Assembly (NCBI GenBank): GCA_963678675.1 | Contig: OY783192.1 | Span: forward strand, 1,002,001 to 1,066,000 | Length of the DNA stretch: 64,000 nucleotides | Direction of reading: 5' to 3' | Source: Xiphydria camelus | Taxonomy: Eukaryota > Arthropoda > Insecta > Hymenoptera > Xiphydriidae | Part shown: positions 62,120 through 64,000 of the stretch, piece by piece | Numbering within the stretch: position 1 is the stretch's first letter | How the letters are laid out: the number at the start of each line of letters is the position of its first letter | Notes under the pieces: generated by a model | Told to the model about the DNA's origin: nothing | The model's database searches: none | Seen by the model: only the letters and a program-made list of their open reading frames with translations | Program-made: the position numbers and the translations under genes

Positions 62120-62508
62120 TAACCCGACCGATGCCCGCGGACAACGAGTTTCGAATTTCGATCCCGACCCGCGCGTGTGATCGGAATTTCGCTGCGATAT
62201 CTCTATCGGTGGCTTGATATCGTGCCTTATTTACCCTCGGAAACCGACGCTAAAAGGTCCACAGTTTTCCACCGCTGACGAATAAGCTCTTTCGGCTGCG
62301 AGACACGATCGCGCTGCGTGGCTTTACAAAGGCGACTCGAATCGATCGCTGAATGACGGACGTAACGTACGAGCGAAAAAAGAGCGCCCCATTTTCAACT
62401 AGTTCGACGATACGCGTTCAAAATTCTTTACAGTTTTTAGACAGCCAAATCTATAGTAATTCTACTTAATCGTCACTTTGTGGCGATCCGTCACGCTACG
62501 GCGGCCTG

Positions 62509-62527
62509 CCGCCAGATGGCGCCGACC
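62509..62527 (+). promoter_or_regulatory. CTCF-like motif
   Basis: CCGCCAGATGGCGCC fits the CTCF core (CCASYAGRKGGCRSY) at all but one position (G for A at position 3). It is the leading part of the hammerhead repeat unit; the two later unit copies keep AGATGGCG but have A at the next position. Function is inferred from motif similarity only. Confidence 0.45.
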
Positions 62528-62557
62528 TTCTCGGCCCTCGACTCCGCGGCAAGCTAC

Positions 62558-62565
62558 TATATAAG
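62558..62565 (+). promoter_or_regulatory. TATA-box-like element in the repeat unit
   Basis: TATATAAG lies about 48 bp upstream of the predicted hammerhead cleavage site and recurs at 62698-62705. It could drive transcription of the unit. Motif match only. Confidence 0.3.
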
Positions 62566-62598
62566 ACCGTAACTGCCCACCTCTCACGGAGAACCACA

Positions 62599-62668
62599 GA
62601 GCGTCTAAGGCAGGAGTCGGCCTAGCCTTACTGACGAGTTCACAGGCCGACTCCGGGACGAAATGCTC
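62599..62668 (+). ncRNA. Type III hammerhead ribozyme, copy 1
   Basis: A 70-nt self-cleaving RNA fold is read on the + strand. Stem III 5' strand GAGCG precedes the cleavage triplet GTC (cut after 62605). Stem I pairs TAAGGC (62606-62611) with GCCTTA (62625-62630), six perfect pairs. The core CTGACGA is at 62631-62637. Stem II pairs GTTC (62638-62641) with GGAC (62656-62659). The second core GAAA is at 62660-62663. Stem III closes with TGCTC (one G-U pair). All invariant hammerhead positions are present. Because stems I and II carry loops and stem III is open, it is the type III permutation. Loops I and II contain exact 11-nt complements. Activity is inferred, not shown. Confidence 0.8.
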
Positions 62669-62710
62669 CGCCATGAGATGGCGACCTCACACGTCGCTAT
62701 ATAAGAAAGA

Positions 62711-62840
62711 ATTTAGAATTAGCTCATAGCATTTGCTGCTGTTGTTGTTGGTGTACTGCATATTTCTTTTTCATCACTCAGTGCGTAAAACTCGGTTTCA
62801 CGGGCGTCCCCAACCCCGTCAACCTCGTATTTGACACTTA
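62711..62840. other. Spacer between hammerhead copies
   Basis: 130 bp of unrelated sequence with a short TGCTGTTGTTGTTGG patch. No feature supported. Confidence 0.4.
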
Positions 62841-62968
62841 GGGCCGGTTTTACCAACAGGTATAAACGCGGTATAGCGCTATACTGAGAATAACCATAAG
62901 GCTTATTGCTGGTTATATTCTCAGTATAGCGCTATACCGCGTTTATACCGTGTTGGTAAAACCGGCCC
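62841..62968. mobile_element. PIF/Harbinger-like palindromic MITE
   Basis: A 128-bp near-perfect palindrome with ends GGGCCGGTTTTACCAACA (inverted copy GGGCCGGTTTTACCAACAC). It is flanked by TTA on both sides (62838-62840 and 62969-62971). A three-base TTA/TWA duplication with GGGCC-type ends fits the PIF/Harbinger group. The arms run through GGTATAAACGCGGTATAGCG and TATACTGAGAATAACCA with a loop of about 15 nt. Confidence 0.85.
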
Positions 62969-62988
62969 TTAGTGACAAAAAATAGAAT

Positions 62989-63105
62989 TCGTTATAAGGG
63001 CGTTTCGCGTCGTTTTAACTCGTGTGGTTGCCGCACTCGCTTCGCTCGTGCCGAAAACTTCACACTCGTTAAAAACGACGCTTCACGCCCTTATAACGAA
63101 AATAT
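62989..63105. repeat. Foldback with TTATAAGGGCG arms
   Basis: TTCGTTATAAGGGCGT at the left and its complement at the right enclose further pairing (GCGTCGTTTT, AACTCGTGTG). Arms are about 40 bp and the spacer is CG-rich. It is probably another short element lying between the hammerhead copies. Confidence 0.75.
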
Positions 63106-63130
63106 CTATCCTCTGCCCCCGAACTGCGCG

Positions 63131-63245
63131 TCTCTCACAGAGGACTACAGAGCATCTAAGGCAGGAGTCGGCCTACTAGCCTTACTGACGAGTCCACAGG
63201 CCGACTCCGGGACGAAACGCTCCGCCTATTAGATGGCGACCACAT
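63131..63245 (+). repeat. Hammerhead repeat unit, second copy
   Basis: It aligns with 62579-62690 over about 112 bp: CTCTCAC, CAGAGC, TCTAAGGCAGGAGTCGGCCT, CTTACTGACGAGT and AGATGGCGACC are shared. Divergence is mainly single substitutions plus a 3-nt CTA duplication in loop I. The unit ends before the TATATAAG seen after copy 1. Confidence 0.85.
63150..63222 (+). ncRNA. Type III hammerhead ribozyme, copy 2
   Basis: The fold is the same as copy 1. GAGCATC ends with cleavage triplet ATC (cut after 63156). Stem I pairs TAAGGC (63157-63162) with GCCTTA (63179-63184). The core CTGACGA is at 63185-63191. Stem II pairs GTCC (63192-63195) with GGAC (63210-63213), four Watson-Crick pairs. GAAA is at 63214-63217 and stem III closes with CGCTC. 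One C-A mismatch next to the core in stem III is the only flaw. Loop I is three nucleotides longer than in copy 1. Activity is inferred and may be weaker. Confidence 0.75.
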
Positions 63246-64000
63246 CTTTTCGCCACAACTTGTTTTCTGAAAAAATTTTCCTGAAACGTTTCACAATATA
63301 TTTCACTCACAATATGTGATAGCCGTATTTTTCCGTCGTACGGAAAATTCAAGCCAGCATTAATGCCGAGGGATTCGACCACGCCGCTTCATTGAACTAA
63401 CTCGGCGCGACACGAGGCCATTACATCGGTAACTTCATTCCGCACAAGTGGATTACACCGCGTTCTATATATGGACTCACTCTCCACCCCTTCCTCCTCC
63501 CTCTCCCAGTATATCACGTAGGTGTATCATCGCGTCGCGGTACAAAGGGAAACAAAATCCAATTTTTTGTATCCTCCTCTTTAGGAAACACCGATATTTT
63601 AACCGAAAGCATCAAAAGGCATCGAGGATTCGTAATTCGCGCGGAAAGCCGATTTAACCGTGAACTCTTTGTCGGGTGGAAAAACTGCGATTCGTGAAAT
63701 CGCTGCGAATCAACGTGTTTCGGCAAACGTGTGCTGCAGATGCGCTCGCGGTCCCGCACCTCTCCGACTAGGTGACGCACTTTCACCGGAGGGGCGATTG
63801 CCGCACTCCCGTCATATATTAACCCTTTTCTATCCATTTTTTCCCTCGTGGATCTTGACCACTGCATGGGAATACGGGAATCTTTTCGTCGAGCACAAAT
63901 TTCAAAACTATCGAGGCACGCCGTGGCCGAGGCCGTGGTGGTCGCATCTTCAAAACCGCTGTTCATCATCGTTCCTCCTCGAAACACCTCGCCTCGTCCA
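63246..64000. other. Gene-free 3' edge of the window
   Basis: It includes a minus-strand open frame of 157 codons ending at 63514, whose ATG lies 13 bp inside the right edge. Its first third has coding-like composition, but no domain was recognised. Otherwise unremarkable sequence. Confidence 0.4.

Follow-up and report, generated by a model that had tools for sequence, protein, structure and literature searches.

The 64,000-nucleotide stretch of DNA analysed here, referred to as the window, very probably contains a decayed non-autonomous LTR retrotransposon in which each LTR carries a type III hammerhead ribozyme. Such an element would be an LTR retrozyme lying in what is probably an insect genome, and a circular-RNA cycle is proposed for it. 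The LTRs, the parts of the ribozyme, the PBS, the polypurine tract (PPT), the target duplications, the recent copying and the hybrids with Ty3/gypsy elements joined at the PBS are all present in the DNA of this genome. The copy in the window is itself damaged and decayed, and far younger relatives of it exist in the genome.

An earlier note had placed a complete type III hammerhead at 62599-62668, and its cleavage triplet, three stems, CUGACGA and GAAA were all found where that note had put them and in type III order (Table 1). The site has the invariant core CUGANGA, GAAA, an NUH triplet and three stems with the opening at stem III, and self-cleavage is predicted between 62605 and 62606. A descriptor that demands a minimum of 5 pairs in stem I and of 4 each in stems II and III was run on both strands with our own script. 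Under strict as well as relaxed settings 62599-62668 was the sole site in the window, and 100 dinucleotide-preserving shuffles gave 0 sites, strict and relaxed alike. The pattern CTGACGAGN{8,30}GACGAAA has two matches in the window where 0.00 would be expected, and a chance match is ruled out by these two exact core matches together with the shuffles.

The Rfam search which the earlier note had proposed as a check came out negative in the window: no family reached its gathering score, and the best hammerhead score was that of RF00163 (15.0 bits against 34). The same model gave 21.9 bits on an intact genomic copy (E = 0.019, gathering 34). Rfam is a detection aid and does not define the chemistry of a hammerhead, and large loops may depress its hammerhead scores; the sub-threshold score is not taken as decisive, since the motif, the shuffles and the genomic family described below favour a ribozyme. 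The hammerhead model which remains after removal of clan overlaps is that of type I, as would suit a repeat of type I like those known from metazoan non-LTR retrozymes or Penelope elements. Such a repeat is extremely improbable here: a type I alignment can be drawn only with non-standard pairing in helix III, a loop closes stem I while both ends lie in stem III as in type III, and the copies possess LTRs, PBS, PPT and 4-bp duplications and so do not answer to the description of a non-LTR retrozyme. The site is read as type III in what follows.

Table 1. Features of the retrozyme copy in the window (positions are those of the window)
Feature	Position	Strand	Basis and remarks
ACTT, probable 5' target-site duplication	62475..62478	+	Repeated directly after the final LTR base, at 63258-63261; four bases may agree by chance
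5' LTR, subfamily ending CGTCGCTAyA, start TGTGGCGA	62479..62701	+	Alignment to genomic LTRs
CCGCCAGATGGCGCC, CTCF-like motif in U3	62509..62523	+	Also in checked LTRs of subfamilies A, B and C
TATATAAG, probable TATA box	62558..62565	+	41 nt ahead of the ribozyme, start to start
Type III hammerhead, copy 1	62599..62668	+	Sequence, pattern count, descriptor scan, fold prediction; predicted cleavage between 62605 and 62606
Stem III 5' strand and end of cleavage triplet, GAGCG-U-C	62599-62605	+	Sequence
Stem I, TAAGGC/GCCTTA	62606-62611 and 62625-62630	+	Sequence
GGAGTCGGCCT in loop I	62613..62623	+	Pairs with 62644-62654 in loop II
Core CTGACGA	62631-62637	+	Sequence
Stem II, GTTC/GGAC	62638-62641 and 62656-62659	+	Sequence; one U.G pair
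AGGCCGACTCC in loop II	62644..62654	+	Pairs with 62613-62623 in loop I
Core GAAA	62660-62663	+	Sequence
Stem III, GAGCG/TGCTC		+	Sequence; one G.U pair
MITE-like palindrome, GGGCCGGTTTTACCAAC arms	62830..62979	.	Inside the element
Second palindromic stretch, TTCGTTATAAGGGCG arms	62988..63100	.	Inside the element
Partial 3' LTR (leader, ribozyme and U5, without U3), end TTTTCGCCACA, the subfamily A end	63122..63257	+	Alignment to genomic LTRs
Hammerhead, copy 2	63150..63222	+	AUC triplet ending at 63156; A.C mismatch at 16.2-15.2; loop I longer by 3 nt
ACTT, probable 3' target-site duplication	63258..63261	+	Sequence

The element of the window spans 62479 to 63257, with ACTT immediately on either side. 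Its two LTR ends differ, the first being a subfamily B end and the second a subfamily A end (the letters A, B and C are labels of this analysis), and its middle is largely occupied by two palindromic stretches. These two strong palindromes lie adjacent to each other, and the GGGCCGG...CCGGCCC core of the first has TTA next to it at either outer end. The second hammerhead begins 551 bp downstream of the first and did not pass the descriptor test; it is probably weak or dead, given its AUC triplet, the A.C mismatch beside the cleavage site and the three additional nucleotides of loop I. The site given in the earlier note stands, and the second copy, the surrounding LTR element and an 11-nt complementarity of the loops, none of them in that description, are added here.

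The same genome (357 Mb in 38 contigs) was searched with a 126-bp query around the ribozyme, and 40 places were scored out of 1,444 candidates, several of them paired at a spacing of 811-819 or 619 bp. The half-motif CTGANGAGTCCACAGGCCGACTCCGGGACGAAA, with at most 3 mismatches, gave 1,139 genomic matches (557 forward and 582 reverse, decayed copies included) and its reversed control gave zero; an isolated relic is ruled out by these matches. Junctions of LTR end and PBS with at most 2 mismatches numbered 187, a count which includes other LTR families, against 0 for the reversed control. The exact pattern had no match in the public collections genome_contigs and viral_contigs.

The anatomy of the family is best given by locus L031, which has identical 250-bp repeats at 596-845 and 1409-1658, starting with TGTGGCGA and ending with TCGCCACA. 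The PBS TTGGTGACCCCGACGTGAT stands right after the first LTR, a G-rich PPT stands before the second, and ATAT is found on both sides. Within the LTR of L031 the ribozyme occupies 145-214 and the TATA box begins at 104, a spacing equal to that of the window copy. The PBS fits at 18 of 18 positions the reverse complement of the last 18 nt, CCA included, of tRNA-Trp, the putative primer. A PBS for tRNA-Met, as in the plant LTR retrozymes, was not found in its place, which is taken as a lineage difference.

Seven complete elements were compared, with L031, L032 and L033 counted as one insertion on account of their common flanks and L039 left out because the locus stops within its 3' LTR. All seven have a type III hammerhead in both LTRs. 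They are 859-1069 bp long with centres of 359-569 bp and cleavage sites 609-819 nt apart, and by frame length they are non-coding (longest ATG frame 82-124 aa). Mismatches within the LTR pairs are 0, 0, 0, 0, 1, 3 and 7 in 250 nt, the retrozyme part of a hybrid element (L022, hybrid 1 below) included, and recent movement of the family is indicated by the LTR pairs being often identical. Four-bp target duplications lie directly at six of the seven, one of which (L035) is within a TA repeat; the seventh is hybrid 1, where GAAG flanks the whole hybrid. Among full-length LTR matches, solo LTRs had 4-bp duplications in 7 of 7 cases. The TG...CA ends of the LTRs, the PBS, the PPT and the 4-bp duplications make up the anatomy of an LTR retrozyme, and the family also falls under the TRIMs, small LTR elements (about 1 kb at most) which have PBS and PPT but no coding sequence, a few copies slightly exceeding 1000 bp.

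A core resembling the CTCF consensus is kept in the otherwise diverged U3 as CCGCCAGGTGGCGCC, CCGCCAGATGGCGCC and CCACCAGATGGCGCT (L031, L014, L016, L075 and the window; three subfamilies). The match is absent from the LTRs of a ribozyme-free TRIM (L076) and of a gypsy element (L077), both described below. With this core in its LTRs, the family could spread insulator-like sites.

The loops of the hammerhead have a relation of their own, as GGAGUCGGCCU of loop I and AGGCCGACUCC of loop II are perfectly complementary over 11 nt. The duplex by itself is predicted at -24.5 kcal/mol. The nested loop-loop hairpin is the lowest-energy predicted fold both of the L031 70-mer (-31.8 kcal/mol) and of the window copy (-30.6), against -15.8 and -11.1 respectively for the plain hammerhead, all these energies being for nested structures in a model which has no pseudoknot terms. 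With both loops constrained to be single-stranded, the minimum for L031 is exactly the hammerhead, and for the window copy another fold at -12.2 stands against the hammerhead at -11.1. According to these models the pairing may be a kissing pseudoknot or an inhibitory hairpin, and it could activate or block the ribozyme.

Conservation of the ribozyme was studied in a sample taken independently of it, namely 30 loci obtained through the LTR-end/PBS junction (the first 30 exact matches, some of which overlap known loci). The stem test was passed by 26 of them, and by L072 also when a wobble pair is admitted by eye. The exceptions are L059, which is degenerate, L063, which has a different LTR without ribozyme, and L068, an inverted LTR fusion. 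In L068 the LTR lies head-to-head with an inverted ribozyme copy immediately ahead of the LTR-PBS junction. Between LTR-A and LTR-C, of which the latter was obtained via the PBS junction and not by a ribozyme query, substitutions number 0/70 in the ribozyme, 15/63 in U3, 10/41 in the leader and 2/36 in the U5 tail; for this one pair Fisher's test gives p = 1.1e-5 for the ribozyme against the rest and p = 3.5e-4 against leader plus U5. An exchange of the ribozyme-U5 module between subfamilies would yield the identical pattern. The conservation seen between subfamily A and B/C (95% against 54% in U3) was dropped as evidence, the loci having been fetched with the ribozyme and being query-biased.

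Among the copies there are 19 distinct ribozyme sequences, each a few changes from the commonest, when matches that span fewer than 46 ribozyme nt are excluded. The family is too uniform for covariation to serve as a proof of structure, and no compensatory base changes were seen among its ribozyme copies. Core changes occur in some copies, as CTAACGA (one copy in L009), GAGA (L004) and TTGACGA (L016). In three copies (L007, the second copy of L008, and L042) TTAGACGC replaces CTAAGGC and stem I is weakened; as these three share a poorly pairing stem I, one branch of the family may have multiplied with an inactive ribozyme. The same three copies have GCGTTTAGACGC at the cleavage site and stem I, where a small hairpin of its own is possible.

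These results have also to be read against an ordinary TRIM, in which the 70 nt would be kept for the 11-bp hairpin, as a signal for packaging, dimerisation or the transcript end, and the hammerhead would be incidental or a relic. The hairpin GGAGUCGGCCU/AGGCCGACUCC is indeed predicted to be far more stable than the hammerhead, the three copies with broken stem I retain its arms, and a TRIM with the same PBS exists without ribozyme. A hairpin, however, needs no CUGANGA, no GAAA, no NUH triplet and no two further ordered stems, which the descriptor matched in none of the 100 shuffles, and the whole 70 nt, beyond the arms, are identical in LTR-A and LTR-C. We consider this explanation quite improbable.

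The machinery of such a non-autonomous family is suggested by L077, an autonomous Ty3/gypsy element with the same PBS as the retrozyme. Its gag frame contains PF23055, and in its pol frame RVT_1 (6e-35), RNase H and integrase (rve, 6.6e-14) domains are present; its LTR contains AATAAA and gives no ribozyme match. The gypsy pol is at most 65% identical to any of the 120 matches listed, nine of which have organism names: seven insects (bees, psyllid and aphid; 58-62% identity) and two tapeworm entries. These relatives point to an animal host, probably an insect.

Mobilisation by Ty3/gypsy would agree with the PBS in common and with two hybrids with gypsy gag-pol, which speak for it indirectly. 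In hybrid 1 (L022, C6 at about 17.272-17.279 Mb) the LTR-centre-LTR of a retrozyme passes into L077-type gag-pol at the boundary of LTR end and PBS; the reading of this locus as an element with a leftover primer copy past the 3' LTR was wrong. Starting at the junction, the gag-pol part is 99.3-99.4% identical to L077 for as much as 1,527 nt. In the remainder the identity is 97.7% across 3.7 kb and 99.1% in the final 0.5 kb. An L077-type LTR stands at the far end, with GAAG on both outer sides. One LTR end of a retrozyme and one of a gypsy element were apparently integrated together, by which both cDNAs would have been in one complex. The exact outer ends would not easily be given by gene conversion, and the single target duplication around the hybrid suggests shared reverse transcription and integration. 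In hybrid 2 (L075/L079) a gypsy-like LTR with AATAAA is followed by PBS, centre and LTR of the retrozyme and then by the PBS and gag-pol of a gypsy element of a different type (RVT_1 2.2e-32, rve 4.6e-12); a matching 3' LTR was not found within the next 3.5 kb.

The ribozyme-free TRIM mentioned above (L076/L063) has the PBS of the retrozyme, and L076 has AGGT on both sides. From this TRIM it follows that gypsy machinery needs no ribozyme and that TRIMs with this PBS can move without one. Absence of AATAAA as a sign of 3' ends made by the ribozyme was dropped, as L076 is also without AATAAA. Two loci hold arrays of LTRs within one target duplication. L073 (135-2235) has four LTRs with 1-3 mismatches, CTAT on both sides and centres of 360, 381 and 360 nt, the first and third centre having 5 differences; L074 (50-1604) has three identical LTRs, GGGA on both sides and centres of 402 and 403 nt. 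Such arrays could arise from a circular template, from template switching or from unequal crossing-over.

The following cycle is proposed, and in it we infer the start site, the cleavage, the circle and the priming by tRNA-Trp from the sequences. The TATA box of U3 would start the transcript shortly ahead of the ribozyme, and if transcription begins about 30 nt past this box the 5' cut would take off only a short leader. Cutting by the ribozymes of both LTRs would release an RNA of unit length (813 nt in L031) that lacks a cap, a tail and a terminal R repeat. Its two ends would then be joined into a circle. The circle would be copied from a putative tRNA-Trp primer by a Ty3/gypsy reverse transcriptase, and the gypsy integrase would insert the product with 4-bp target duplications.

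An active ribozyme with no role for circular RNA is the main alternative to this cycle: it would trim or destroy transcripts, while the copies that move would be made from uncleaved RNA in the way usual for LTR elements. LTR ends, PBS, PPT and duplications as in normal LTR elements agree with this, the loop-loop hairpin could hold the ribozyme off, and the centres of L073 are non-identical, which repeated copying of one circle would not directly give. It leaves unexplained, though, why an RNA-cutting motif is unchanged beside a diverging U3 and leader, and the arrays inside one target duplication (L073 and L074) fit a circular template, even if unequal crossing-over fits them too. We regard this alternative as unlikely, yet of appreciable weight. 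The fuller form of the proposed cycle is tentative, and we put it somewhat below an even chance: an animal LTR retrozyme would move via a ribozyme-made circular RNA, removal of the R repeats would let reverse transcription go around the circle inside gypsy particles and so yield some arrays and the PBS-joined hybrids, and the loop complementarity would be a switch between cutting and full-length RNA.

Several known systems can be compared with this family. The plant LTR retrozymes are described as having LTRs of 300-400 bp with type III hammerheads, a tRNA-Met PBS, PPT and 4-bp duplications, together with solo LTRs and circular RNA, and a circular template is proposed for them as the R repeats are lost on cleavage (Cervera et al. 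2016, PMC4918200). As far as that description extends, the family described here shares with them a type III hammerhead in both LTRs, a non-coding centre, PBS, PPT, 4-bp duplications, cleavage sites some 700 nt apart, solo LTRs and a Ty3/gypsy link. It differs in its probable animal host, in its LTRs of 217-250 bp (measured on LTR-A and LTR-C copies), in the 11-nt complementarity of loops I and II, in the internal tandem repeats of about 31-35 bp in L031 and in a circle which is here only proposed. The PBS differs as well, fitting tRNA-Trp, the putative primer, in place of tRNA-Met.

A small non-coding insect LTR element with TATA box, PBS, PPT, 4-bp duplications and abundant solo LTRs is known in PbTRIM of ants (Zhou and Cahan 2012, PMC3532108). 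Its LTR lies in a shorter range, 152-184 bp, its PBS is for tRNA-Leu, and the accessible part of that paper mentions no ribozyme for it. The forward LTR primer of PbTRIM given there has a faint likeness to loop I and to the 3' strand of stem I in the present ribozyme, and PbTRIM may hide a hammerhead.

The earlier note had found a type III hammerhead in an animal genome notable. Type III is supported by the sequence and the host is probably an animal, but animal genomic copies of this type had already been reported, in termite and dipteran genomes and in D. pseudoobscura; hammerheads of type III with loop-loop pseudoknots are also described from HDV-like RNAs of termite and toad (PMC7936874). 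In the accessible text of that work the termite genomic copies are isolated motifs, insect work of the same group is cited as in preparation, and a structure-based search gave no hammerhead of that paper's own architecture in the hymenopterans searched there. Type III topology, occurrence in insect genomes and Watson-Crick pairing of loops I and II (predicted here) are shared with those hammerheads. In the HDV-like ones helix I is longer and contains an internal loop, and the match between the loops is 4 nt, whereas here there are two simple stem-loops with 11 complementary nt inside an LTR element.

Metazoan retrozymes, as described in PMC7229834 and PMC7761336, have type I hammerheads in tandem repeats of 150-450 bp without LTR, PBS or PPT; the common ground with them is a hammerhead-bearing non-coding retroelement in animals. 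No animal LTR retrozyme was found in the open literature, which was searched mostly by titles and abstracts, subscription papers and preprints lying outside its scope. What is notable is a type III ribozyme as a regular LTR part of an abundant and probably Ty3/gypsy-dependent retroelement in the arrangement of the plant retrozymes. An abundant young animal LTR retrozyme, if true, would remove the divide between plant and metazoan retrozymes and give an animal system for the circular-template model, with the hybrids tying it to a definite kind of autonomous partner. The family also bears on the suggestion, made in PMC7761336 with reference to work in preparation, that plant LTR retrozymes gained their type III hammerheads by horizontal transfer, for example from bacteria or insects.
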